Shown here: positions 1 through 12,907 of the stretch, one piece after another
Position numbering within the stretch: the stretch's first letter is position 1
Layout of the letters: the number at the start of each line of letters is the position of its first letter
Assembly (NCBI GenBank): GCA_021404565.1
Contig: JAAWWF010000003.1
Coordinates: forward strand, 186,001-250,000
Direction of reading: 5' to 3'
Source of the DNA: Roseivirga sp.
Lineage (GTDB): Bacteria; Bacteroidota; Bacteroidia; Cytophagales; Cyclobacteriaceae
Length of the DNA stretch: 64,000 nt
The notes under the pieces: generated by a model
What the model saw: only the letters and a program-made list of their open reading frames with translations
The model's database searches: none
What the model was told of the DNA's origin: nothing
Position numbers and translations under genes: made by a program

Positions 1-568
1 GTATAATAAAGGCCGTGCTTTGGTTTATTATACCTTTCAGATGTATTGCCATCGCATGCTGGAGAACCTGAAGGAACTGCATGCAATGGCATCAGAAAAA
101 GGTTACGTGCTGGGGGCAAAGCTGGTGAGGGGCGCCTACATGGAAAAAGAACGGGCTCGTTCTTTCGATCTACACTATGCCGATCCTATCCAGCCTGATA
201 AGCAGAGTACCGACAGAGATTTTGATGCGGGGCTTGAGTTCTGCGTGGAAAATGTAAAAGAAGTCAATCTCTTTGCCGGTTCGCATAATGAAGACAGTAA
301 CCTCAAACTCGCAAAGCTCATAGGTGATCATGGCCTGAGTGTCGATGATAAACGTGTAAGCTTTGGTCAGCTATTTGGTATGAGTGACAACATCTCATAC
401 AACCTGGCCAATGCAGGCTATAATGTGGCTAAGTATGTGCCATATGGCCCTATCAAGGCCTCGATGCCTTACCTCTTCAGAAGAGCGGAGGAAAATACTT
501 CTGTAAAGGGGCAAAGCAGCAGAGAACTCACCCTGATCGAGCGCGAAATAGCAAGAAGAAAATCCTAA
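1..568 (+). CDS. Proline dehydrogenase, C-terminal part (5' end outside window)
   Basis: FAD-dependent oxidation of proline to pyrroline-5-carboxylate, the first step of proline catabolism. The reading frame is open from base 2, so the true start lies upstream; the TTG at 20 is not a credible start. About 189 codons are visible. Recognisable family landmarks are KLVRGAYMEKER near the beginning (strand of the TIM barrel with the Arg/Tyr substrate contacts), FAGSHNEDS in the middle, and the FGQLFGMSDN and YVPYGPIKASMPYLFRRAEEN blocks near the C-terminus, whose paired arginines bind the proline carboxylate. It is the stand-alone type: no pyrroline-5-carboxylate dehydrogenase domain follows. It is convergent with the M56 protease gene that ends 2 bp downstream. 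Confidence 0.93.
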   Translation, partial: YNKGRALVYYTFQMYCHRMLENLKELHAMASEKGYVLGAKLVRGAYMEKERARSFDLHYADPIQPDKQSTDRDFDAGLEFCVENVKEVNLFAGSHNEDSNLKLAKLIGDHGLSVDDKRVSFGQLFGMSDNISYNLANAGYNVAKYVPYGPIKASMPYLFRRAEENTSVKGQSSRELTLIEREIARRKS

Positions 569-570
569 TC

Positions 571-1779
571 TTACCGCCTGGATTCCAGTTTAACGTTGTT
601 GGTTCTCCTATAGTCATTTCGAGCTATATCAAGGCTTTTATATCCAATGGCTTTATAGGTAACCAGGGTATCTTTGGGGGTTGAAGGCAGGCGGTAAAAT
701 CCTTCTTCATTGGGTGAGGTACTTTTTCCCGATGGCAATGACCAGATTTTTGCATTGATGATAGGTTCATTTGTTTTTGAATCTTTTAACCACCCCGTAA
801 CGTCCGAAACACTAGAGAAGCCGAAGTGAGAACTGACCACTTCCTTATTCTGTTTTTCCAGCATTTCTTTCAGTTCGTCAATGGAGATCTTGAGCTCTGC
901 TAGGGTGATTTCGTCAGAGGGTTCAGATATTGATGTGTCAGCGCAACTGACTGTTATAAATAAAATGGCAAAAAGAGGAATTGGAATAAGAATGGATCTG
1001 AGTTTTTTCATTTTTGTTGCTTTGGGATTATCAATCATTTTCAGTCTTTTTTCTACCGGGTGTGCTGAGAAGGAATGGGCGAATTGATACCCGGATTGTT
1101 TGAGGCTATACCGGACCAGTAAATCGGCATAAGAAGCTTTATCCCAGCTCCGAATAACTGCCTCATCAGCAATGTATTCGTGCTGTAACTTGAGCGCTTT
1201 ATGGTATAGGTAGATTATAGGGTTAAACCAGAATAGCGTTTTTACCAGTTCTAAGAGCAGAAGGTCCAGGCTATGCAGGCCTTTGATATGTGCCTTTTCA
1301 TGCTCAATGACGGATGTCCCCGATGTACTTTCTTTTACTTCTTTGTTTATAAAGACATAGTGAAAGAAACTAAAGGCCTGTCGGGAATTGATATAAACAA
1401 AGGTGAGCCCCTCTGCTTTCTCTTGTTGTCCGCTGCGGATGCACGACCTGATGGACTTGATTTTCATCAGAAACATGATTAGGGTCAGGGAGAGCCCTAT
1501 CCAGTATATAACCGAAAGCAGACTAACTCCCGTACCGGGAGCTTCTGTGCTCGCTGGTACTGATTCCGGCAGATTTTGGCTACTCCGCCAAACCTGCACT
1601 GTCTCCGGAATCTCCATCGATAAGGTGATGGTTATCAAAGGAAAAGCCAATGAGATTGTCACTGATATGAGCAAGTATAAACGATTGAGAGATAGTAATT
1701 TTTGCCGGGAGAGTACCAGCCAGTAAAAGAGGTACAGACAAACGAGGCAAACGGAAGCTTCCAGTAAATAATCAACCAT
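571..1779 (-). CDS. M56 (BlaR1-like) membrane metallopeptidase with carboxypeptidase-regulatory-like tail, orphan copy
   Basis: Predicted zinc protease of the BlaR1/MecR1 family, which in characterised systems senses a signal outside the membrane and triggers cleavage of a BlaI-type repressor. Visible: membrane segments near residues 5-22, 34-53 and 87-106; zinc motif HEKAH at 160-164; WFNP at 184-187; HEYIADE at 200-206 carrying the third ligand; then a fourth hydrophobic segment (258-278) beginning MKKL and ending in Cys279. The last ~75 residues form a carboxypeptidase-regulatory-like beta domain in place of the penicillin-binding sensor of BlaR1. Unlike the two upstream M56 genes, no BlaI gene is directly attached. 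The DNA around its HPVEKRLKMID motif closely matches the copy at 2347-3543, so the two are tandem paralogues. Signal and target are unknown. Confidence 0.85.
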   Translation of the reverse strand: MVDYLLEASVCLVCLYLFYWLVLSRQKLLSLNRLYLLISVTISLAFPLITITLSMEIPETVQVWRSSQNLPESVPASTEAPGTGVSLLSVIYWIGLSLTLIMFLMKIKSIRSCIRSGQQEKAEGLTFVYINSRQAFSFFHYVFINKEVKESTSGTSVIEHEKAHIKGLHSLDLLLLELVKTLFWFNPIIYLYHKALKLQHEYIADEAVIRSWDKASYADLLVRYSLKQSGYQFAHSFSAHPVEKRLKMIDNPKATKMKKLRSILIPIPLFAILFITVSCADTSISEPSDEITLAELKISIDELKEMLEKQNKEVVSSHFGFSSVSDVTGWLKDSKTNEPIINAKIWSLPSGKSTSPNEEGFYRLPSTPKDTLVTYKAIGYKSLDIARNDYRRTNNVKLESRR

Positions 1780-1866
1780 GTTTTTGAGGTTTACAGCGTA
1801 GGTACTCTGTTTAATCAGGTCAGCTTGTTCACGGATACTCTGATCGAGCGTGAAAAAAGGAGATGG

Positions 1867-2241
1867 TTACTGTTTATCAAAGACCGCACCTACCATCTCA
1901 TCATATGGTCTAAGAGGTGCGTGTACCTCTCCATAGCCTTTTTTAGTGAAAACAACAGTTGTATCTGTTTCAGGACGTTCAAAAGAGCATGTACCTTCTG
2001 CATTGGTAATACCTTTTGAACGTGATGGAAAACTCATGACCAGAACATCCTTTACTGGTTGTAAACTCTCACGGTCATTTACTCGGCTCATTAATGTCCT
2101 GGTATGTACGGTAGTGCTGGTTTCAGCTTCTGAATCAGACGGTGTTTCGTTATTTGGGGATGAGATTCTGTCTGAGCAACCGTAGGCTATGAATAGCATT
2201 GTAAGCAATGGTATGGCGATAATCAGCTTTGGTTTTTTCAT
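1867..2241 (-). CDS. Small lipoprotein resembling a detached M56 C-terminal module
   Basis: A 124-residue protein with a lipoprotein-like signal: MKKPKLIIAIPLL at the start and a lipobox-type cysteine at about residue 22 (IAYGC). After a Ser/Thr/Glu-rich linker comes a short carboxypeptidase-regulatory-like domain (VNDRESLQPVKDVLV ... GITNAEGTCSFERP ... VVFTKKGYGEV). The whole protein aligns by eye with the last ~145 residues of the neighbouring M56 protease at 571-1779, starting exactly at that protein's internal MKKLRSILIPIPL segment. It lies between two M56 genes on the same strand. Either it is a free-standing sensor or accessory lipoprotein of this locus, or the remnant of an M56 copy that lost its protease part. 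The intact frame, start and lipobox favour a functional gene. Confidence 0.65.
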   Translation of the reverse strand: MKKPKLIIAIPLLTMLFIAYGCSDRISSPNNETPSDSEAETSTTVHTRTLMSRVNDRESLQPVKDVLVMSFPSRSKGITNAEGTCSFERPETDTTVVFTKKGYGEVHAPLRPYDEMVGAVFDKQ

Positions 2242-2346
2242 GGGATTATAAGATTTTTTATGATTTTAAAGTGCTTATAGGTAACTGTATGTTCTGAGAA
2301 GCAGGGTATTTACCAGAGTCAGGAGAATTCAACATAAGCTGAGGTT

Positions 2347-3543
2347 CTAGTCATTGCCTTCTTTCTCGGGAACAGCCTTTTTGGTCAGTGCCACATTCAC
2401 TATATCTTGTCCTTTATAGGGAACAATCATGTCCTCATAACCTGTTTTGCGGAAGACAACCAGCGAATCTGTCTTATCCATTTGAAGAAGGTAATCACCT
2501 TTAGTATTGGTGAAAAGCCCCGAACGTCTGTGATAAGTTTTACCCCCTGCCTTTACGATTGTGTTTTCGCGTGAGTGGATGATAAAGACAGTCACCTTTT
2601 CCAATGCTTTTCCAGACTTTTCATCCATTACATGTCCCCGAAGTTTGGGCCCAGTCGGTTGGGTTAAATTGGCATTTTCTGTTTGAGAATAAACCTGCCG
2701 ATCAAAGCCGAATATGAGTATCAAGGTAAAAATCAGTGGTAATGACCACAGTAGTCTTAGCTTTTTCATGGTATTTGGGTTTAGTTTATCAATCATTTTC
2801 AATCTTTTTTCTACTGGGTGTTCTGAGAAGGAATGGGTAAGTGAAAACCCAGACTGTTTGAGACTAAAGCGAACCAGTAAATCGATATAGGAAGTTTTAT
2901 CACAACTGTGCACGACAGCCTCATCAGCAATGTATTCATGCTGCAATTTCAGGGCTTCGCGGTATAGGTACGTGACCGGATTGAACCACAGAATTACACT
3001 TATCAATTCCGTAAAAATCAGGTCAAGAGAATGCCAGTCGCAGGCATGCTTTCCTTCATGTGTAAGTATAGATTGTACCTCTGCTGATGCGATATCAAGA
3101 CTCTTTGGAATGAATACATATTGAAAGAAAGAGGAGACAGGGCGGTCGTCCGGAACATAGACAAGGCAAAGCCTGTCAAACTTCCTTACAGGGTGTTTTA
3201 AGATGGTCTGAATAATTCTGAAGATCCTCAGGAGTAAAATTACTGCCATAGTGCCTGCTCCGATGAGGTAAACTAAAAGCACCGGATTTATTCGTTGTAT
3301 TGGCTCAGGTTGTTCCGTGGCTCCGTCAGGTATTATGCTGACATAGTCAGGTATGTTAGTGTTAATATTTGATTCTAACTGGTAGAAGGAAATATCGAGT
3401 AATGGAATGACCAGACTCAGCAGCAGGGTCGCCAACAGGTAAGCCCGGTTAGAGTTCAGGAGTTTGAGCCTGGACAGACCGAGTCGATAGCAGGCGTAAA
3501 ATGCCGCCAGGCATACCGATACCTCAATCAAGTAGTTAATCAT
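2347..3543 (-). CDS. M56 (BlaR1-like) membrane metallopeptidase paired with BlaI-like repressor
   Basis: Predicted membrane zinc protease partner of the repressor at 3536-3895; the two frames overlap by 8 bp, so translation is probably coupled. Membrane segments near residues 5-22, 34-52 and 86-108; zinc motif HEGKH at 162-166; WFNP at 186-189; HEYIADE at 202-208; HPVEKRLKMID at 242-252. The last hydrophobic segment starts at Met259 (MKKLRLLW) and ends VYSQTE, which reads like a signal peptidase I site rather than a lipobox. A carboxypeptidase-regulatory-like domain follows (about 303-390: GHVMDEKSGKALEKV ... FTNTKGDYLLQM). BlaR1's beta-lactam sensor domain is absent, so a beta-lactam signal is not supported. 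Confidence 0.87.
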   Translation of the reverse strand: MINYLIEVSVCLAAFYACYRLGLSRLKLLNSNRAYLLATLLLSLVIPLLDISFYQLESNINTNIPDYVSIIPDGATEQPEPIQRINPVLLVYLIGAGTMAVILLLRIFRIIQTILKHPVRKFDRLCLVYVPDDRPVSSFFQYVFIPKSLDIASAEVQSILTHEGKHACDWHSLDLIFTELISVILWFNPVTYLYREALKLQHEYIADEAVVHSCDKTSYIDLLVRFSLKQSGFSLTHSFSEHPVEKRLKMIDKLNPNTMKKLRLLWSLPLIFTLILIFGFDRQVYSQTENANLTQPTGPKLRGHVMDEKSGKALEKVTVFIIHSRENTIVKAGGKTYHRRSGLFTNTKGDYLLQMDKTDSLVVFRKTGYEDMIVPYKGQDIVNVALTKKAVPEKEGND

Positions 3544-3895
3544 TTTTCTTCAGTTTTTTAAGGAGATTTTCCACCTGACTTACACTCAGCTCTTTCTCTT
3601 CCATCATAAATGAAAGCAGGTTTTCAGAAGAGCCGTTGAAGTACTTTGAGAGTAGATTGGTAATGTTTTTCTTACCGTAATCCCGCTTGGCTACGGAGGC
3701 GGTGTATATGAGTACATTACCAAGTTTCTTTCTTTCAACAAAGCCCTTGGTCTCCAGGATTTTTAGAAAAGTACCCACAGTGTTGTAGGCAGGTTTGGGT
3801 TCGGGAAGGTCTTCCACAATCTCTTTTATCAAACATTCTTTGAGTTTCCAGATTACTTGCATAATCTGTTCTTCAGCCTTTGTTAATTCCTTCAT
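3536..3895 (-). CDS. BlaI/MecI-family transcriptional repressor (copy 1)
   Basis: A 119-residue winged-helix repressor of the BlaI/MecI/CopY family (Penicillinase_R). The N-terminal half is the DNA-binding domain: LTKAEEQIMQVIWKLKECLIK, then the recognition-helix block PAYNTVGTFLKILETKGFV and the wing (ERKKLGNVLIYTA). The C-terminal half (KNITNLLSKYFNGSSENLLSFM onward) is the dimerisation region that is cut in the known systems. Its start lies about 10 bp from two 16-bp dyads (3906-3921 and 3926-3941), so it probably represses itself and the M56 gene that overlaps its end. Its recognition block is identical to that of the second copy at 5403-5762. Confidence 0.92.
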   Translation of the reverse strand: MKELTKAEEQIMQVIWKLKECLIKEIVEDLPEPKPAYNTVGTFLKILETKGFVERKKLGNVLIYTASVAKRDYGKKNITNLLSKYFNGSSENLLSFMMEEKELSVSQVENLLKKLKKND

Positions 3896-3904
3896 GTTTT
3901 AATA

Positions 3905-3942
3905 TTCCTAATTTTTTAGGATCATTCCTAAAAAATTAGGAA
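3905..3942 (-). promoter_or_regulatory. Probable BlaI-type operator, two 16-bp dyads at 20-bp period
   Basis: Two dyads, TCCTAATTTTTTAGGA (3906-3921) and TCCTAAAAAATTAGGA (3926-3941), with starts exactly 20 bp apart. Together they also form one perfect inverted repeat: the 18-base arms 3904-3921 and 3926-3943 flank a TCAT spacer. The element sits just upstream of the repressor start at 3895. The same dyad consensus, TCCTAA-N4-TTMGGA, recurs upstream of the other repressor gene. It differs from the TACA/TGTA half-sites of staphylococcal BlaI/MecI. Operator function is inferred. Confidence 0.75.
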
Positions 3943-4228
3943 TTACTTTTAGCAAAGACCGGAAAACGTTTTCAATTAACAACTGAAAGGCTTCTGGCAG
4001 AGTCCCCGTCATAACCTACTAATCAGGTTGATTGAAGTTGTGGTCTGAATAATGGTGGCGGATGTTGTGCGTCAGGGATTCTACTGTAAGGGTGATTTGT
4101 GTTTTTCTTCGACCACAATATTGCCGGGAGACGGGAGTGGGCTGGTCAGGATTTAGACCTGCGTTTTTGGAGAAGAAAATTCCCCGGTAAAAGAATCGGT
4201 AGGGCTTTGGTCGGGAAGTATTTTTAAT

Positions 4229-4268
4229 AGCAAAAGAGGAACTACGCACACGTAGTTCCTCTTTTGCT
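4229..4268 (-). terminator. Perfect 18-bp hairpin, probable terminator
   Basis: The arms AGCAAAAGAGGAACTACG (4229-4246) and their exact complement (4251-4268) surround a 4-base loop. The A-rich/T-rich ends would give a U-run on either strand. It begins 11 bp past the end of the M56 gene at 4280-5410, so it probably terminates that operon and insulates the next one. Confidence 0.75.
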
Positions 4269-4279
4269 GTCAGTTTGCT

Positions 4280-5410
4280 TTATTTCTGGTTACCGGACTC
4301 TCTTTCTTCATAGACAGCCCTGGCTGATGATGGACTTTCCTTTTGAGAGATATTGAGGGCATGTATTTCATGTTCCAATACTTCAATTACTTTTTCATTT
4401 GAACTGGCAGTGTACTTTCGTGGTGTACTTGATACACCAATCGCTATTTCATGGGGGGCGGAGGGGTTTTCATAAGTATAAATTATTATATCATGAGGTT
4501 CTGTGGTTACTTCAACTACAACTGGTAGTTCTGCAACTTCTGCTATTATTTCTTCCGGTACCTGATCAGAATCCGGGATAGGCGCTTCAGAGCAAGCAAA
4601 ACTAATGAAGAGAATTGCGAGAATGGGGATAGCGAATAATGGTTTTAACTTGTTCATAATATTTGAGTTTAATTTATTAATCATTTTTAACCGTTGTTGA
4701 ATAGGGTGCTGACCAAAGCCAGCGATGAGGCTATCGTCAATTTTGGATAGTGTAAACTGCAGTAATGACTGTTCGTAAGTCTCAACATCGGCAACTTCCA
4801 GCGCACATTGATCTGCTATATACTCATGTTGTAATTTGACTGCCCCGGAATAGAAATAGGAAAATGGATTGAACCAAAAGGCACATTTTACTAATTCAAA
4901 ATAGATCAGGTCTATAAAATGTAAGCCTTTTATATGAGCAGTTTCATGGGCCAGTATGTGTGCCTTCAGGTTCGGGTCCTGTGTCAGCCTCTTTCCAATG
5001 AAGATGGTGTTAAAGAAGCTATAAGCTTCATTCTCACTGACTTCGATAATGGCTGGGTTTCTCTGATAAGAAAAGCTGTTTCCGATACGCCTTTTGGCTT
5101 TTAGTAATCGAATAGTGAAGAGTATGAGAGAAATTACCAGACCTGTAAAGTAGATACTTTGTAATGGAAAGCTTTGTAAATCAATGAGGGTGCTGTCTGT
5201 CGTGGTGATTTCAGTACCAATATCCCTTAAAGGACTTACGGCTTGAGACTGATATTTAATGTCAAGCAGGGGAATCAGCATAGAGATAGTGCTGGTGACA
5301 ATCAGGTAAAACCTGTTAATAGAGAGGAGTTTTTCTCTGTGCAAAAAGATCCGATAAAAGCTGTAAAAAACAGCAAGACAAACCGATGATTGAATCAGGT
5401 AGCTAATCAT
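4280..5410 (-). CDS. M56 (BlaR1-like) membrane metallopeptidase, copy paired with second BlaI
   Basis: Third M56 protease of the locus (376 residues), overlapping its repressor gene by 8 bp. Membrane segments near residues 5-22, 35-52 and 84-103; zinc motif HETAH at 155-159; WFNP at 179-182; HEYIAD at 195-200; HPIQQRLKMIN at 235-245. The last hydrophobic segment begins at Met252 (MNKLKPLFAIPIL) and ends with Cys273 in a lipobox-like FISFAC context. Unlike its two paralogues, the tail after it (about 100 residues, acidic and Val/Thr-rich, then SSARAVYEERES) has no clear carboxypeptidase-regulatory repeat. The tail is probably the sensor part and has diverged fastest. Confidence 0.86.
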   Translation of the reverse strand: MISYLIQSSVCLAVFYSFYRIFLHREKLLSINRFYLIVTSTISMLIPLLDIKYQSQAVSPLRDIGTEITTTDSTLIDLQSFPLQSIYFTGLVISLILFTIRLLKAKRRIGNSFSYQRNPAIIEVSENEAYSFFNTIFIGKRLTQDPNLKAHILAHETAHIKGLHFIDLIYFELVKCAFWFNPFSYFYSGAVKLQHEYIADQCALEVADVETYEQSLLQFTLSKIDDSLIAGFGQHPIQQRLKMINKLNSNIMNKLKPLFAIPILAILFISFACSEAPIPDSDQVPEEIIAEVAELPVVVEVTTEPHDIIIYTYENPSAPHEIAIGVSSTPRKYTASSNEKVIEVLEHEIHALNISQKESPSSARAVYEERESGNQK

Positions 5411-5762
5411 TTTTTTTGAGTTTTTTCATGAGATCCTCAACCTGCTCGATGTTCAGGTCCTTTTCCCTGACCATAAATGAGAAGAGCTTTTCTGCCGACC
5501 CTTCAAAGTACTTACCCAGGAAGCCATTCATAGAAGCCCGGGTATAGGCCTTCTGACCGATTGCCGGCTTATACATATAGGTGTTTCCGAACTTCTTTCG
5601 ACTGACAAAACCTTTGGTTTCCAGTATCTTAAGAAATGTCCCAACGGTGTTATAGGCAGGTTTAGGTTCAGGCATTTCATCCACAATATCCTTGATAAAT
5701 GCCTTTTTCAGGTCCCACACAATCTGCATAATTTGCTCTTCGGCTTTTGTTAAGTCTTTCAT
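5403..5762 (-). CDS. BlaI/MecI-family transcriptional repressor (copy 2)
   Basis: A 119-residue winged-helix repressor, the same length as copy 1 and very similar throughout: LTKAEEQIMQIVWDLKKAFIK, the same PAYNTVGTFLKILETKGFV recognition block, then wing SRKKFGNTYMYKPA and dimerisation region KYFEGSAEKLFSFMV. Three 16-bp dyads at exact 20-bp spacing begin 5 bp upstream of its start. Because the recognition helix is unchanged, the two repressors are likely to bind each other's operators. It heads a two-gene operon with the M56 protease at 4280-5410. Confidence 0.92.
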   Translation of the reverse strand: MKDLTKAEEQIMQIVWDLKKAFIKDIVDEMPEPKPAYNTVGTFLKILETKGFVSRKKFGNTYMYKPAIGQKAYTRASMNGFLGKYFEGSAEKLFSFMVREKDLNIEQVEDLMKKLKKND

Positions 5763-5766
5763 TTAT

Positions 5767-5822
5767 TCCTAAGTGTTTCGGAAATCTCCTAAAGTATTCG
5801 GATATATCCTAAGACTTTAGGA
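5767..5822 (-). promoter_or_regulatory. Probable BlaI-type operator, three 16-bp dyads at 20-bp period
   Basis: TCCTAAGTGTTTCGGA (5767-5782), TCCTAAAGTATTCGGA (5787-5802) and TCCTAAGACTTTAGGA (5807-5822) are placed at an exact 20-bp period, about two helical turns, so bound dimers would lie on one face of the DNA. They lie immediately upstream of the repressor start at 5762. Half-site conservation (TCCTAA/TTMGGA) with variable centres is what a dimeric repressor site looks like. Binding by BlaI is inferred. Confidence 0.78.
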
Positions 5823-5920
5823 GTTATTTAAATGAAAGACCGTTTCTGATGTATGTCGTGTTGAGTGCTATGAGGGTCATATTATGCTTGATTTGCTGTT
5901 CTATAATGTTTTTGAATCAT

Positions 5921-5928
5921 TAACTTTG
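5921..5928 (+). promoter_or_regulatory. Candidate -7 box of the lysS promoter
   Basis: TAACTTTG matches the Bacteroidota sigma-70 consensus TAnnTTTG and lies 22 bp before the lysS start, leaving a short leader. A TTTG at 5892-5895 is a little too far upstream to be an ideal -33 element. Confidence 0.4.
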
Positions 5929-5950
5929 CGCTCTTAAATTTTAAAGCACA

Positions 5951-7657
5951 ATGCAGAAATTAAGCGAGCAGGAGATACAGCGCAGGGAGCAAAGACAGCA
6001 GCTTCTGGACCTGAACATCAATCCGTATCCATCTGAAACCTTTGGAGTAAGCCACTTCAGCAAGGAGATTAAGGAAGGATTCGAAGCCGATCCTGAACGC
6101 TATAAACAGGTAACTCTGGCAGGCAGACTTATGAGCAGACGTATTCAGGGCTCAGCTACCTTTGCTGAACTGCAGGATGCCCAGGGGCGTATTCAGCTTT
6201 ATCTGCGCAGAGATGATATCTGCCCTGGAGAGGATAAAACCCTTTACAATACGGTTTTTAAGAAAATTCTCGGTATCGGAGATATTATCGGAGTAGAAGG
6301 CTATGTCTTTAAAACTCAGGTAGGAGAAATCTCAGTACATGTCACCGGCTTAACGGTGCTGACCAAAGCTCTAAAACCACTACCTCTTCCAAAAACAGAT
6401 GGTGATGGTGTGGTTCATGATGCCTTTACCGATCCTGAAAAACGTTACCGTCAGCGCTATGCAGACCTGGTGGTAAATCCTCATGTAAAGGAGACTTTCG
6501 TAAAGCGTACTAAAATGGTTAACTCCATGCGCCAGTTTCTGGCAGACAGGGAGTACCTCGAAGTAGAAACACCCATTCTGCAGCCATTGTATGGTGGTGC
6601 TGCGGCACGTCCGTTTAAAACGCATCACAATACCCTGGACATGACGCTCTATATGCGTATTGCCAATGAGCTATACCTTAAAAGGTTGATCGTTGGTGGT
6701 TTTGATGGTGTTTTTGAGTTTTCAAAAGATTTCAGAAATGAGGGGATGTCTCGTTTCCACAACCCGGAGTTTACCCAGGTGGAGCTCTATGTAGCCTATA
6801 AAGACTATGATTGGATGATGAACCTGGTGGAGGAGATGATCGAAAAAGTAGCGATTGACCTTCATGGCACCACCAAGGTACAGGTAGGAGAGAATGTGAT
6901 TGATTTTCAGCGACCCTGGAAGCGTTTCACCATGTTTGAGGCGATTGAGCATTTTACGGGAATCGACATTTCTGAAATGAATGAAGAGGAGTTGCGGAAA
7001 ACTGCAAATGGCCTGAAAGTAGAAACGGATGATTCTATGGGCAAAGGCAAGCTCATCGATGAGATTTTCGGAGAGCACTGCGAGCATAAACTGATTCAGC
7101 CTACTTATATCACAGATTATCCTGTGGAGATGTCTCCTCTGGCTAAGAAGCACAGAGCCAAAGAAGGTTTGGTAGAGCGCTTTGAAGCTATCTGTAATGG
7201 TAAGGAAATATGTAATGCCTTCTCTGAGCTGAATGATCCTATAGATCAGCGTCAGCGCTTCGAAGAGCAGCTGGAGCTTGGCAAAAGAGGTGATGATGAA
7301 GCCATGATGCTGGACGAAGATTTCCTCCGGGCCCTCGAGTACGGTATGCCGCCTACTGCAGGTTTGGGTATTGGTATTGACAGACTCTCCATGATCATGA
7401 CCAATTCTAATTCCATCCAGGATGTGCTCTTCTTCCCTCAGATGAAGCCTGAGAAGAAGGAGGTAGAGTTGACAGAAGAGGCAGCTGGTGTTTTACAATC
7501 GCTGAAAAAAGTAGGACGAACAGATCTGGCTGACCTGAAAGGGCAAGCTGGCCTGTCTAATAAGAAATGGGATAAGTCCATCAAGGAGCTTACCCAAAAA
7601 GGCCTGGCCAAAGTAGAAAAGACTGATGAAGGACTTTTTGTGCAAATAACAGAATAA
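5951..7657 (+). CDS. lysS: Lysine--tRNA ligase (class II)
   Basis: Charges tRNA-Lys with lysine in the cytoplasm. The N-terminal OB-fold anticodon-binding domain covers roughly residues 50-165 ([14 protein letters not shown] ... [14 protein letters not shown]). The class II core follows: motif 2 [20 protein letters not shown] near residue 260 and motif 3 [12 protein letters not shown] near 471. FFPQMKPE near 495 marks the end of the usual bacterial enzyme; about 70 further residues form a helical, charged extension ([20 protein letters not shown] ...) that may be a small extra domain. The ATG at 5951 is supported by the -7 box just upstream. A strong hairpin terminator follows. Confidence 0.97.
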
Positions 7658-7684
7658 GGATCAATTGTGATCTGAAGAGATAGT

Positions 7685-7723
7685 GGCCTGATTAAACCAA
7701 TATGTGTTTATTCAGGCCTTTTT
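7685..7723 (+). terminator. Rho-independent terminator of lysS
   Basis: GGCCTGATTAAAC (7685-7697) pairs with GTTTATTCAGGCC (7706-7718) at 12 of 13 positions around an 8-base loop. A run of five T follows. Confidence 0.85.
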
Positions 7724-8256
7724 CATTTCAGAATTTTGAAGCCAATACCGGAGAGTGTCATCTGCCTGTTACCTTCCAGACTGGTCCATTTGGTTTCGGC
7801 AAATACAAAGAACTTCTTCAAAACATCCATTCTCAGGCCTGCCCCGATGTTTACACCGGTAGCTGATTTCTCCTCGGCCAGCCGTACAAATTGAATTGTA
7901 TAGCATATCTGATCCGGGTCGTTGGAAATCATGCGCCTGAACTCAACCAGTCCGTAAGCCTGGATTTTATTGTTAAGGAAATAGTACTTACTGCCGATAT
8001 TCAGGTTTCTGAATTTGTAGAAGCAATCAGCATTGGCAAAGGCATAACTGGTATTCACTGCTAGTCTGGGCAACAACCTGTATTCCATCTGAAGCTTAAA
8101 GCCGTTGGTCTTTGTATTCCAGGTGGTATTTTCGAGCTGATCATTTGCCCGGCCCAGGTTAAGGCCGACAGAAAAATCCAGCTGTCCTGCTTGCTGGGCA
8201 TGTAGACCTGAACTAATCAGTACAATTAGGAGTATAGCAAAAATGGAAAACCGCAT
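7723..8256 (-). CDS. Secreted outer-membrane beta-barrel-like protein
   Basis: Unidentified 177-residue protein. A clear signal peptide (MRFSIFAILLIVLISSGLHAQ) is followed by alternating amphipathic strands typical of small outer-membrane barrels (LDFSVGLNLGRA, FKLQMEYRLLPRLAVNTSYAF, LNIGSKYYFLNNKIQAYGLVEF, GVNIGAGLRMDVLKKFFVFAETKW) and a C-terminal strand ending GFKILK. It lies downstream of lptD on the same strand with a 69-bp gap that contains a CTGCCTTT/AAAGGCAG inverted repeat. No specific substrate or role can be assigned. Confidence 0.7.
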   Translation of the reverse strand: MRFSIFAILLIVLISSGLHAQQAGQLDFSVGLNLGRANDQLENTTWNTKTNGFKLQMEYRLLPRLAVNTSYAFANADCFYKFRNLNIGSKYYFLNNKIQAYGLVEFRRMISNDPDQICYTIQFVRLAEEKSATGVNIGAGLRMDVLKKFFVFAETKWTSLEGNRQMTLSGIGFKILK

Positions 8257-8325
8257 AGCTGCCTTTTTACTCTTTAGTCACAAAGGCAGGTAAAAAGGTT
8301 GTAGCCTTTGGCCGCAACACTGGCT

Positions 8326-11064
8326 TTAATTATCAAAGAAGCTTCTGCGCCTGCTGATTTTCAGGTCTTTCAATACGGAAGATTTGATCTGGATATCGAT
8401 GGTATAGGAAGTGAATCGACCGAAAGGAATCCAGTTGGCACGCATTTCCCAGCAACCCAGGTCACGGAAAATACCGACAGAGGTCTGGGTGATTTCCTTC
8501 ATATCTATATCATAGCCCGTATTGAGTGTTATCTGCCATTTTGGGGTCAGACTTACTTGTCCATAAAGCTTTACAGCCTGCCTTGTTGTGGTGCTGTTGA
8601 GCGAGCGGGAGAAGTTGTAGTCATAGCTGAATCGCAGGTTCCAGGGTATGTCCAGGTCCACGTAGGCATTGGGGTCATAAAAGTATTGTGTTTGCTGTCT
8701 GATCAGATTTTCTCCTCCATCATTGATAGAACCAAATTGCCCCTGGGGATCGTCAATGAAACCATCCTGAACACGCTGGTTGGGGTTAAAGTTTGGATTT
8801 CCATTATTGGCCGGGCCTGATGAGGCATCAGAATTCAGGTTCGTGCTAAGGGATAGCCTGGCACTGGTAAGTGTTCCCAGGCCTTGTCCGCCTTTCCAGG
8901 CAAATTGGTTTACCCGCCTGGTAGATGAGGTAAAAGACCCATCCTCATTTTCTGTAGTGGTAGTCAATCTCGTGTAAGGGTCCAGTAACATGCCCATGTT
9001 GACATTGAGCTTTCTGTCAAACAGCGTTGTTCGGGCTGTAAAATTAAGCGTAGAAAGGTTAAAAGAGTCTGCAAGAAAATTATAAGAACCGCTGAATGAC
9101 AGGTTCTCCAGTATGGGCACCTTTTTAGACTGCGCTGTATCGCTGCGAACCTTCGCCTCAACCTTATTGAGTATTGAGAAATTCATGGAAGCAGATTCTC
9201 CAAGGGTAGGTGCACCAAAAACGAAGCCATCGTAGATAGAAAGCAGTTGCGTGTCTTCGGGGTCTGTATCAGTTTGTACTGTCTGATAGAAACCGAATTT
9301 CTCCTGGCTGAAATCAGGGCGGTAGCTGAAAGAAATGGTTGGCGTTACGATATGCCTTATGGCCTCAAGCCTGCCCCTGTCTCCAAAATTAAACATACCA
9401 TAAAGCTGTGTCGAAACACCCACGCTCGCTCGGTAAGTATTCGCTCTGCTAAATCCTGAAAGCGTATCAATTCTTACTGCGTTCAGGTCGCTGTCATAGG
9501 CATAATCCAGTTCTTCGAGGTACCATAACTCCTGAAATTCTACTGATGGAGTCACGTTCAAATTCTTGAATATCGGAAAGGAGGTAGAAATAGGAATGGT
9601 GTGCCTCGCTCCGTTTTTGGCATTCTTTAACAACTCATTAAGGGTATTGAAGCGCACATTGATGGTGTCAGCCTCGCTGGAGCCATTGGCAATGTCGAAA
9701 CCAGCGGTAGCCGGTCTTACCAGGTTAGTGACACGGTTGCTCACATTAAAGTTCCAGCCTACATTCAATCTCTTTAATATTTCCGCTTTAGAGCCTTTAG
9801 CCGGATAAATGCGATTCATATTAACAGACAGCTCAGGCAGCGATACATCGACTATACCGGTTTGCACATTTTGATTGTGTCGTGCACTAAGAGAGTAGCT
9901 GATGGGGGTACCGGAAATACTCGAAGAATAAGATATATTCGATCTGAACTCAGAGCGGATATTGTTCTGGAAATTATTGAGCCTGAGGTTATTGCTGTTA
10001 AAGGTAGAGGTACCCACATTCACGCTTGCCGAAAAACGACCGTTTCCTCTTGATTCAGGCCTGTGTGCCCATTGAAACCAGAAATCCTTTGAGTCCAGTG
10101 GTACCTCTTCAAACTCCAGGTTCCTGTTGCGGTTAAACTCGAACCTGAAATCCCCTGAATATTTGTACCGCTTTCTATAGTTCGATTGGGCCTTTAGTCC
10201 CCAGCTGCCTTTAGAATAGATATCACCCGTAAGAGCTGTATGGATATATGGATTCCATACAAAGAAATAGCCGCCCTCGCGTAAAAAAAGTCCCCGGTTT
10301 TGCTCACTGCCATATTTAGGGAAAAGGATTCCCGATTTCTCAGCTGATTTGGGCTCCGGAAACATAAAGAAGGGCAATCCCAATGGTGTTGGTATATCTC
10401 CCACATAGACCAAAAAAGGCCCTGTGATAATCTTGTCGCCCGGAATCATCTTGATTTTCGTTGACTTGATATAGGTAGTTGCCAGCGGATCATCGCAGGG
10501 GATAAAGCGTCCACCAGCTATATAAGCACTGCCGTCTGTGTTTCTCTTTACCACCTCACCAGAGAGGTAACCGTCTTGCTGCTTGGTGGCAACACCCTTG
10601 ATACGTGCTCTATCAGAATTAAAGTTGTACCTTATTTCTCGGGTTTCAAACTCATCAGGGCCGTCCTTAAACAGGGGTAGTCCCTGCCAGGTCCCTGTGC
10701 TGTCCTGAACGCCATTGGCACGGAGTTCGTTTTTTTCGCGGTCTATGACTATTTCAGCAGCATCTAATCTTATATCACCATAAACGATATAAGCATTTCC
10801 GTAAAGGTACGTTACGTTGGTGAGTGTCTTGGTTATGATAGAATCTTCAGCATAATACTTAATGGTGGTTTCCACACCATCTTTGTTTATGATCAAAGAA
10901 TCTGTCGGGTCTGGTCTGGAATTTGTAGAATCACGTACAACTGGAGGTATCGTATCCGACTTAACCGGTAACTCGGCAGTCTTCAGTTTTATGTCCTGTG
11001 CATGAAGGCCCAGGGAAACTAAAGTGAGAATGATTATGGTAAAGACGGACTTTTTTGAAAGCAC
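8326..11064 (-). CDS. lptD: LPS-assembly protein LptD (Bacteroidota type)
   Basis: Outer-membrane barrel that inserts lipopolysaccharide into the outer leaflet. An N-terminal OstA-like periplasmic region (VTYLYGNAYIVYGDIRLDAAEIVIDREKNELRANG) is followed by a long beta-barrel rich in aromatic, alternating strands up to the C-terminus. The frame is open to an ATG at 11130, but the GTG at 11064 gives an ideal signal peptide (LSKKSVFTIIILTLVSLGLHAQ), while the longer start would add a charged 22-residue extension, so the GTG is preferred. Divergent from the amidase gene. About 910 residues, typical for the family. Confidence 0.88.
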   Translation of the reverse strand: MLSKKSVFTIIILTLVSLGLHAQDIKLKTAELPVKSDTIPPVVRDSTNSRPDPTDSLIINKDGVETTIKYYAEDSIITKTLTNVTYLYGNAYIVYGDIRLDAAEIVIDREKNELRANGVQDSTGTWQGLPLFKDGPDEFETREIRYNFNSDRARIKGVATKQQDGYLSGEVVKRNTDGSAYIAGGRFIPCDDPLATTYIKSTKIKMIPGDKIITGPFLVYVGDIPTPLGLPFFMFPEPKSAEKSGILFPKYGSEQNRGLFLREGGYFFVWNPYIHTALTGDIYSKGSWGLKAQSNYRKRYKYSGDFRFEFNRNRNLEFEEVPLDSKDFWFQWAHRPESRGNGRFSASVNVGTSTFNSNNLRLNNFQNNIRSEFRSNISYSSSISGTPISYSLSARHNQNVQTGIVDVSLPELSVNMNRIYPAKGSKAEILKRLNVGWNFNVSNRVTNLVRPATAGFDIANGSSEADTINVRFNTLNELLKNAKNGARHTIPISTSFPIFKNLNVTPSVEFQELWYLEELDYAYDSDLNAVRIDTLSGFSRANTYRASVGVSTQLYGMFNFGDRGRLEAIRHIVTPTISFSYRPDFSQEKFGFYQTVQTDTDPEDTQLLSIYDGFVFGAPTLGESASMNFSILNKVEAKVRSDTAQSKKVPILENLSFSGSYNFLADSFNLSTLNFTARTTLFDRKLNVNMGMLLDPYTRLTTTTENEDGSFTSSTRRVNQFAWKGGQGLGTLTSARLSLSTNLNSDASSGPANNGNPNFNPNQRVQDGFIDDPQGQFGSINDGGENLIRQQTQYFYDPNAYVDLDIPWNLRFSYDYNFSRSLNSTTTRQAVKLYGQVSLTPKWQITLNTGYDIDMKEITQTSVGIFRDLGCWEMRANWIPFGRFTSYTIDIQIKSSVLKDLKISRRRSFFDN

Positions 11065-11140
11065 TCGATTTTTCGGTTTTTCGGAAAAATTCAGATTTTT
11101 GCGTAAAGTTATTCCAATAACAGAATTCATAAGTAAAGAA

Positions 11141-11935
11141 GTGAAAAATAATCTGGCCCTTTATCTTGTTTTGTCGTTCGTTGTTATCTCACTAACATCG
11201 TTTCAGACAGTTCCTACCGAAAAAGCAAAGAAATTCAAAGTTGTAATCGATCCGGGGCATGGCGGGAAAGATCCCGGTACCCGTGGTTCGTACACACTTG
11301 AAAAAGACGTGGTGTTGAAGGTAGCACTGAAAGTAGGCAAATACCTTGAAGACCTGCTTGACGATGTGGAAGTCATTTATACACGAAAAACTGATTCCTA
11401 CAGTCACCCCAAAATTGATGCCGAAATTGCTAACAATGCGGAGGCCGATCTGTTTGTCTCCATCCATGCCAACGCTATGCCTCCCGGAAATGCCCATGTA
11501 CGTGGTACAGAAACCTTTGTGATGGGAACTAAAAATGAAGGAAGAAACTTTGAAGTAGCAAAGCGTGAGAACTCAGTGATATTGTTGGAGGAAGATTATA
11601 AGGAGGCCTATCAGGATTTTGATCCAACCTCTCCTGAGGTCAATATTATGTTTTCCATTATGCAAGAGGCTTATCAGGAGAATAGTATTATTTTGGCCAA
11701 TAATATTCAAACACAGTTTGAAAAGCGTGCCGGACGAAAAAACCTGGGGGTAAAGCAATCAAGCCTTTGGGTGCTTTGGAATACGGCAATGCCAAGTGTT
11801 TTAGTCGAATTAGGATATTTGACTAATCCGAAAGAAGAAAAAGAGTTAAATAGTGACGAAGTTCAGGACTATTTAGCTTCAGCGATTTTCAGAGGAATAA
11901 GGGATTACAAAAAATATTTAGAATCAACCAAGTAA
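11141..11935 (+). CDS. N-acetylmuramoyl-L-alanine amidase (Amidase_3)
   Basis: Exported zinc amidase that cleaves the amide between MurNAc and the stem peptide, probably during cell separation. Catalytic blocks: VVIDPGHGGKDPGTRG (zinc His) near residue 35, ADLFVSIHANAMP (second His) near 107, and PSVLVELGYLTNPKEE (catalytic Glu) near 225. The frame is open from 11024, but the GTG at 11141 starts a proper signal-peptide segment (KNNLALYLVLSFVVISLTSF). The upstream ATG would overlap the divergent lptD start. The MlaD-like gene follows 3 bp later, so they form an operon. Confidence 0.9.
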   Translation: MKNNLALYLVLSFVVISLTSFQTVPTEKAKKFKVVIDPGHGGKDPGTRGSYTLEKDVVLKVALKVGKYLEDLLDDVEVIYTRKTDSYSHPKIDAEIANNAEADLFVSIHANAMPPGNAHVRGTETFVMGTKNEGRNFEVAKRENSVILLEEDYKEAYQDFDPTSPEVNIMFSIMQEAYQENSIILANNIQTQFEKRAGRKNLGVKQSSLWVLWNTAMPSVLVELGYLTNPKEEKELNSDEVQDYLASAIFRGIRDYKKYLESTK

Positions 11936-11938
11936 GCG

Positions 11939-12907
11939 GTGGCTAGCAAAGGCAGAGAGATAAAAGTCGGAATATTTACAGTGCTCATGGCGTCTGCCCT
12001 GTATATAGGGTTTAACTACCTGAGGGGACTTGATGTTTTCTCTCCCGAGCAACCCTACTATGTAAAGTTCAACAGCATTAGTGGGCTCAATAAGGGCGAC
12101 AGGGTGATTCTGAATGGTCTTGATGTGGGGAGCGTGATTGAGCGTAAATTCAGCAATGCGGCTTATGATGAGATTATCGTCACGCTTTATATAGACAGAA
12201 CCATCTCCCTGACTGAAGGTTCAGTTGCGAAACTATCCCAAGACTTGCTGGGTACAGCCAAGATACAACTCATTGTCAATCATGAGACGGACCAGATACT
12301 GGCACCGAGTGATACACTGATAGGTGAAATTGATGAAGGACTCACAGAACGACTGACCGCTACGGGACTTGATGCTGCTGATCAATTGACAGCATTGGTC
12401 CGTACCATGCAGGATGTGCTGGAGCCCTTCGCTGAAAATAAGGCTGAGTTGGATTCCACAATCAAAAACTTTAAAGCCCTTTCAGAAAACCTGGTGGAGC
12501 TTACCGATGCGACAAAAAACTCGCTGGATCAATTTAACCTGAAAATGGAATTTGTTACTGATTCACTGGTGCATGCCATGGGAGGAATGAAGCCATTGCT
12601 GGCCGAATATCAAGCCTTGGGAGAAAAATTCAACGCGATAGACATTGAGTCAAGGTTGTTGAAGGTAGACTCTGTACTTCTGGGTACGCAAGAGCTGCTG
12701 ACAAGCCTGAACTCTGATGAAGGGATGCTGGGAGAGCTTAAAAACAACGATTCGCTTTACCATTCGCTGAACAAAACGATGGTGGATCTGGATAGTCTGT
12801 TTATGGATTTCAGAGAGAACCCGAAACGCTACGTGCACTTCTCGTTATTCGGTCGAAAAAACCGACCACCTGCAGACAAAAAGAAAAAGCGAAGGAAGGA
12901 CAAATAA
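11939..12907 (+). CDS. MlaD/MCE-domain protein (phospholipid transport)
   Basis: Substrate-binding component of an Mla-type lipid transporter, anchored in the inner membrane by one N-terminal segment (VGIFTVLMASALYIGFNYL). The MCE domain follows (YYVKFNSISGLNKGDRVILNG, about residues 40-118), then a long helical region (about 120-280) expected to form the periplasmic tube and a basic C-terminus (KKKKRRKDK). It starts at a GTG 3 bp after the amidase stop. The ATPase and permease partners are not in this window. Confidence 0.9.
   Translation: MASKGREIKVGIFTVLMASALYIGFNYLRGLDVFSPEQPYYVKFNSISGLNKGDRVILNGLDVGSVIERKFSNAAYDEIIVTLYIDRTISLTEGSVAKLSQDLLGTAKIQLIVNHETDQILAPSDTLIGEIDEGLTERLTATGLDAADQLTALVRTMQDVLEPFAENKAELDSTIKNFKALSENLVELTDATKNSLDQFNLKMEFVTDSLVHAMGGMKPLLAEYQALGEKFNAIDIESRLLKVDSVLLGTQELLTSLNSDEGMLGELKNNDSLYHSLNKTMVDLDSLFMDFRENPKRYVHFSLFGRKNRPPADKKKKRRKDK

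Follow-up and report, generated by a model that had tools for sequence, protein, structure and literature searches.

The window, a stretch of 64,000 nucleotides from a Roseivirga sp. contig, carries two genes for BlaI/MecI/CopY-type repressors, blaI-A and blaI-B, and the end of each overlaps with a following M56 protease gene (Table 1). Upstream of blaI-A lie three inverted repeats, TCCTAAGTGTTTCGGA (5767-5782), TCCTAAAGTATTCGGA (5787-5802) and TCCTAAGACTTTAGGA (5807-5822). The original prediction had placed three dyads at 5767, 5787 and 5807 with an exact 20-bp period, and they are present letter for letter as it quoted them; in the direction of blaI they read TCCTAAAGTCTTAGGA, TCCGAATACTTTAGGA and TCCGAAACACTTAGGA. 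Since neighbouring dyads are separated by 4 bp, the same length as the spacer within a dyad, half-sites alternate in orientation every 10 bp. The same alternating pattern appears among relatives, where the 222-gene set described below contained 54 cases of two perfect dyads offset by 10 bp. The earlier description had missed the second paralogue, blaI-B, and a second array directly upstream of it, composed of TCCTAATTTTTTAGGA (3906-3921) and TCCTAAAAAATTAGGA (3926-3941), both perfect and in a 20-bp step.

Table 1. Predicted operator dyads, genes and recognition-helix codons at the two blaI loci of the window.
Feature	Position	Strand	Basis
Operator dyad 1, TCCTAA-N4-TTAGGA, perfect, farthest from blaI-A ATG	5807..5822	-	sequence
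Operator dyad 2, TCCGAA-N4-TTAGGA (blaI direction), 20 bp from dyad 1	5787..5802	-	sequence
Operator dyad 3, TCCGAA-N4-TTAGGA (blaI direction), ends 4 bp before blaI-A ATG	5767..5782	-	sequence
blaI-A, 119 aa, BlaI/MecI/CopY-type repressor (PF03965)	5403..5762	-	PF03965 E 4.4e-30, structure-model match
Recognition helix alpha3 codons, residues 37-50, YNTVGTFLKILETK	5613..5654	-	AlphaFold2 helix 37-50
M56 (BlaR1-type) membrane protease, HETAH, overlaps blaI-A end	4280..5410	-	profile match
lysS, lysine--tRNA ligase, divergent beyond blaI-A array	5951-7657		
Second array dyad 1, TCCTAATTTTTTAGGA in blaI-B direction	3926..3941	-	sequence
Second array dyad 2 (10 bp before ATG), TCCTAAAAAATTAGGA in blaI-B direction, in 20-bp step with dyad 1	3906..3921	-	
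blaI-B, 119 aa, 62% identity to blaI-A, recognition helix identical, YNTVGTFLKILETK	3536..3895	-	
Second M56 protease, HEGKH	2347..3543	-	profile match

Two further reading frames continue on this strand, neither immediately preceded by a blaI gene: one for a third M56 protein (571-1779) and a 124-aa lipoprotein-like ORF (1867-2241) that by eye looks like the C-terminal portion of an M56 protein. Both may belong to the blaI-B operon. The C end of the second M56 protease gave a weak, below-cut-off match to a carboxypeptidase-regulatory-like domain.

The exact motif TCCTAA-N4-TTMGGA occurs in only five places, both in the window and in the whole 8.57-Mb genome (98% complete), all of them in the two arrays. 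Allowing up to two mismatches gave 17 matches of the 16-mer in the window against 10.15 expected, a number reached by 8 of 100 shuffles, so that a lone 16-mer of this looseness is no rarity. Across the genome, up to one mismatch gave 37 strand-hits and the backward control pattern 115, so loose matches elsewhere in the genome carry no meaning. A genome-wide regulon was considered and rejected: the one-mismatch sites outside the arrays are lone, the full set of hits falls below the control and exact sites are confined to the two arrays, and a wider regulon is therefore not claimed.

The Penicillinase_R profile PF03965 matched blaI-A over profile positions 1-114 of 115 with 104.8 bits (cut-off 22.6). 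An AlphaFold2 model (mean pLDDT 80; residues 81-119 at 58-66 only) found MecI or BlaI in all of its best 12 PDB matches (query TM 0.71-0.81), among them the operator complexes 1sax, 2d45 and 1xsd, and predicts a winged-helix N domain and a helical dimerisation domain as in MecI/BlaI. A predicted operator in the form of an inverted repeat of ~16 bp precedes the repressor's own operon, as in that family. The protein stayed below the curated cut-offs of the NCBIfam models CopY_TcrY (48.3/121.95), BlaI_of_BCL (37.3/180) and MecI_of_mecA (37.1/250).

PF05569 (M56) was found in three proteins here, with the HEXXH motifs HETAH, HEGKH and HEKAH. Profile searches matched no penicillin-binding sensor domain in any of the three, the blaR1_generic model aligned with the protease part only (18.8-35.8 bits, cut-off 400), and among the ORFs of window positions 1-12000 no beta-lactamase or resistant PBP gene was recognised by eye. 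As the three M56 proteins show no penicillin-binding domain, nothing here points to a beta-lactam signal. BlaR1 is reported to cut BlaI directly (PMC9834060); the blaI-A residues aligned with the MecI cut at Asn101-Phe102 are Phe96-Met97, so cleavage of BlaI-A is not assured.

To follow the array in relatives, we assembled a first set of loci from searches of the own genome, the genus, the family and the class and from two operator-pattern searches. From 234 matching ORFs, 222 unique BlaI genes were kept (loci L022-L256) after dropping duplicates and genes without a usable start; 12 of them had been fetched by operator pattern, and 208 of the others have a full 200 bp upstream. Within those 200 bp, 156 of the 208 genes carry a CTA-N6-TAG dyad (40.2 in shuffles), and 85 carry at least two dyads in an exact 20-bp step, against 0.10 in shuffles (maximum 1 in 50). 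With the operator-fetched genes included, the exact step with two or more dyads is present in 98 of 222 genes and a single dyad in 70. The distances between dyads in the 220 full-length regions were dominated by 20 bp (126) and 40 bp (33), the next being 18 bp (10). Neither the 20 sites in the initial 200 coding bases of these 220 genes nor the 11 sites in the -400 to -200 stretch of 149 genes included a 20-bp pair. The triple pattern with free outer bases was present in 8 of 296 genomes of the phylum, and its backward control in none.

No CTA-N6-TAG site was found in 52 of the 220 upstream regions; a core-agnostic search of these recovered two convincing 20-bp arrays (L027, AACTTA three times; L168, AACTGA three times) and beyond them mostly noise. 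When the spacer was varied from N1 to N8, sites peaked at N4 (154 of 222 genes, 20-bp period), with N5 sites in 22 genes. Four genes of the type PH[FY]NTLSTIVR[GS] (L159, L179, L187, L195) have 6-N5-6 dyads with a 21-bp period, so the gap between dyads stays constant at 4 bp.

A second set (loci L262-L369) contributed 105 new unique genes, none of them of the VGTF type introduced below. Here the 20-bp step was found in 18 of 45 ordinary-type BlaI genes (0 in shuffles) and in none of 60 MT-type BlaI genes of the phylum; it thus marks a large part of the family, not all of it. The MT-type genes listed (45 of 60) came from genomes of the same phylum and another class, and their commonest distance was 14 bp (18 pairs). 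Genes with the MT-type helix AYTT[VI]MT[VI]MK (L266, L270, L298, L311 and others) are preceded by TACTATTATATTAGTA-like dyads at overlapping 14-bp spacings, a different array geometry.

For the letters of the half-site, we used genes with a confident operator, defined as two or more dyads or one perfect dyad, which retained 144 of the 222 first-set genes (78 left out) and 48 of the second set (57 left out); bases -6 to -4 could not vary, because the site definition requires the CTA...TAG core. Among the 144 genes, AACTAA was found in 89, TCCTAA in 18, AACTAT in 14, TACTAT in 11, TACTAA in 5, TTCTAC in 4 and three other words in one gene each. Other subtypes keep the same frame with AACTAA, TACTAA, TACTAT, TTCTACA or AACTTA, and some relatives have TACA-type sites. 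The TCC...GGA dyad is linked to a single subtype, whose recognition helix contains VGTF[LI]K: it precedes 17 of 17 such genes and 0 of 205 other blaI genes. The original prediction would have fallen had the dyad not been enriched upstream of blaI-like genes in relatives, and the enrichment is present for the VGTF[LI]K genes fetched by protein (12 of 12, against none of the 205 other blaI genes). A lone TCC or GGA half-site was seen in four other genes (L135, L152, L205, L251).

A scan for the operator alone gave the same association. The tandem pattern TCCKAW-N4-WTMGGA was found in six stretches among 84,980 species genomes, a collection that may omit records very near the window's genome, and all six precede a VGTFLK blaI (L078 among them). 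Of 291 genomes of the order, 3 carried a stricter tandem pattern; all three belong to the window's genus, and the backward control gave 0. Contigs that carry the TCC operator together with the gene are named Roseivirga, Cyclobacteriaceae and Cytophagia, which points to Bacteroidota as the phylum. The word had been proposed as the code of a Bacteroidota BlaI; it turns out to be used by one narrow BlaI subtype and is not the code of the phylum, AACTAA being commonest among relatives. The own genome has 12 BlaI genes, nine of them with a clear dyad, and these nine show eight different half-site words. The comparison with relatives suggests that the version of the site varies with the repressor subtype, in accord with a few residues of the recognition helix.

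The covariation between helix and operator was measured as mutual information, with similar sequences weighted, between 119 protein columns and the operator bases. The best of the 119 columns were 41 and 45 for base -8, 43 and 41 for -7, and 46 for -3. Helix alpha3, with 13 of the 119 columns, supplied three of the top five for each of these bases, and for -2 and -1 no alpha3 column was among the top five; outside alpha3, residues 23, 57, 62 and 94 also reached the top five for some positions. We therefore regard G41, F43, K45 and I46 of alpha3 as specificity candidates.

Residue 46 aligns with Arg51 of MecI and BlaI and is Ile in blaI-A. In the five structure alignments compared (a sixth match, 2g9w, was left out), MecI, both BlaI and CopR (2k4b) have Arg at this place. 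TACA/TGTA is the operator given for BlaI, MecI and CopR (PMC7253601), and Tyr46 and Arg51 of PadR alpha3 are reported to match sequence-specific DNA-binding residues of RTP or BlaI (PMC3506622); we infer that the Arg of that comparison is BlaI Arg51. The classical KACA-N2-YGTM core is absent from the window dyads, which have TAA at -5 to -3 and a repressor with Ile46, not Arg. In the first set, C at -3 was found in 6 of 7 Arg46 genes and in 0 of 137 with other residues, and in the second set in 4 of 4 and 2 of 44, respectively. Arg46, as in MecI/BlaI, is thus the residue that goes with classical TACA in these sequences.

The rule that Arg45 goes with A at -8 and any other residue with T fits 140 of the 144 first-set genes (the misses are two A and two C) and 45 of the 48 second-set genes, where the three exceptions carry Met41. 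A refined rule (Ser41 and Arg45 with A, otherwise T) fits all 48 second-set genes and was devised after seeing them. When the helix was excluded from tree building, the tree showed four changes at -8, two at -7 and two for C at -3, so the covariation rests on few independent events; these changes are too few for a tree sign test to reach 0.05, and the Fisher p of 2.7e-10 in this context takes no account of relatedness.

The system shares much with staphylococcal BlaI/MecI, namely PF03965, the fold, a blaI gene adjoining an M56 protease gene, and an inverted-repeat operator with TA at -5/-4 in a common frame. The bla/mec operators are single or wider-spaced dyads. Here, in contrast, we find a 20-bp tandem array, TCCTAA instead of TACA (the original prediction had rightly called the half-site unlike the published TACA/TGTA), Ile46 instead of Arg51 and M56 proteins in which no penicillin-binding sensor domain was matched. 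The partner of CopY/CopR is a P-type copper exporter, not an M56 protease. CopY/CopR also differ in their TACA core, in the Arg at the equivalent of residue 46 (2k4b) and in their C-terminal CxC metal motifs, whereas blaI-A has no Cys; CopY_TcrY is nevertheless the best-scoring NCBIfam model for blaI-A, though below its cut-off. The family and the 16-bp operator frame of RNYKACANNYGTMRNY are common to both (PMC7253601), and the mec/bla consensus is reported to share that frame (PMC5341023). Measured against the CopY consensus RNYKACANNYGTMRNY, TCCTAA agrees from -7 to -4 and differs at -8, -3 and -2. The operator code proposed as distinct is therefore not an entirely separate one, since the frame is kept.

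In E. hirae and pneumococcus, CopY is described as having a pair of operators ahead of the operon (PMC7253601). In Clostridium thermocellum, BlaI_0696 and BlaI_1845 are reported to bind GTCTAT/GACTAT half-sites in ordered sets of four before their own operon (PMC8457756). That system resembles ours in having BlaI with BlaR1 genes and non-TACA half-sites and differs in the word and in the five-nucleotide spacing of BlaI_0696; the parts of the study covered give neither a period between dyads nor a helix-operator comparison (PMC8457756). Non-TACA BlaI words are thus already known from C. thermocellum. Among the matches listed, the open-licence PMC literature gave no description of a TCCTAA operator or of a BlaI helix code; as far as that literature was searched, the new elements are TCCTAA as an operator word, the rule of 20-bp (or 21-bp) arrays in the phylum and the helix-operator link.

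We consider it highly probable that the 56-bp stretch serves the blaI-A/M56 operon as its autoregulatory operator array, a prediction made from sequence; its three dyads are very probably the repressor's own docking sites. Starting from what was observed directly (the sites, their spacing, their strict link with a blaI subtype and the helix-operator covariation), the best reading is that a known repressor family here uses a new variant of its operator, with a proposed helix-operator code. BlaI-A dimers would bind each TCCTAA-N4-TTAGGA dyad, and BlaI-B and mixed dimers probably bind too, because their recognition helix is identical. Lined up along the same face of the DNA, two or three dimers would span the start region and probably also the promoter, and occupancy of the array, possibly cooperative, would repress the operon. 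By analogy with BlaR1, the M56 protease would cut BlaI on sensing its signal, and the array would empty. TCCTAA would be read by alpha3 through G41, F43 and K45, plus I46 in place of the Arg of MecI, BlaI and CopR. Such reading would separate the blaI-A/blaI-B pair from the other BlaI paralogues of the cell, an insulation suggested by the eight half-site words among the nine clear dyads of the genome.

An array lying between two divergent genes might instead serve lysS or another regulator, its place beside blaI being incidental. An ORF with the lysS N-terminal sequence does lie divergently beyond the array in 11 of 16 other VGTF[LI]K loci (at L076 the stretch ends before any upstream neighbour). 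The array is, however, kept with other upstream neighbours at L024, L036/L078, L037, L253 and the window's own blaI-B, and in other relatives the arrays lie ahead of blaI genes, with letters that follow the BlaI helix, which makes this explanation very improbable. We give even less credence to the dyads being 5' untranslated RNA hairpins for translation control or attenuation, not DNA operators. As inverted repeats near the ATG that pair mostly at -8 to -3, they do look as an RNA stem would, but -2 and -1 are mostly unpaired in the dyads of arrays, and -5/+5 in 44 VGTF dyads (one of them a far, probably spurious site) reads T:A in 26, G:A in 15, T:C in 3 and G:C in none, so stems are broken and not compensated. 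RNA stems would also leave the exact 20-bp period and the covariation with the protein helix unexplained. After these tests, both explanations are weak.

Somewhat more weight, although it too appears unlikely, goes to an operator for a single dimer, in which just one dyad is functional, the remaining copies having arisen as by-products of duplication, and binding is not cooperative. The 70 of 222 genes with one dyad only would agree with it, as would the report that CopY binding to two operators close together is not cooperative (PMC7253601). Against it, two or more dyads at exactly 20 bp precede the 98 genes counted above (12 of the 222 having been operator-fetched), neighbouring dyads differ in their spacer letters and yet keep the period, and the period of the N5 subtype moves to 21 bp, as if the 4-bp gap were selected.

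Descriptions of BlaI/MecI repressors usually give a single operator word, TACA/TGTA, taken from a few Gram-positive resistance and copper operons. For the phylum as a whole, we see about an even chance that the BlaI paralogues are mutually insulated switches with an alpha3-operator code, and that the fixed 4-bp gap makes BlaI form a row on DNA. Under such a code, residues 41, 43 and 45 would set bases -8 and -7 and residue 46 would set -3, which would allow many BlaI-M56 systems to operate in parallel within a single cell; the 4-bp distance separating dimers, preserved even in dyads that are one base longer, would have BlaI assemble as a short row. If true, the BlaI family has many operator words, predictable from a handful of residues in a single helix; sequence would then be enough to call the operators and regulons of BlaI-M56 systems not yet studied, and orthogonal repressors could be selected for use in the laboratory; and a dozen BlaI paralogues per genome without cross-talk would be explained.

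Two minor patterns were seen in the half-sites. At -5/+5 of the VGTFLK arrays, 16 of 17 genes show T:A in their first listed dyad (the exception, L234, with one detected dyad, has T:C), and 15 of the 27 other dyads have a left-half G (TCCGAA) that is never compensated. TCCGAA is a conserved weak half-site at fixed places, at 5767-5802 of the window and upstream of L074, L076, L079 and L232, for which graded occupancy or an overlapping promoter element are possible reasons. A single TACGAA-N4-TTCGTA dyad precedes BlaI-like genes with a YTT(T/I)LK helix (L190, L191, L192, L197, L198), and by eye Lys42 might go with G at -5 in this group.
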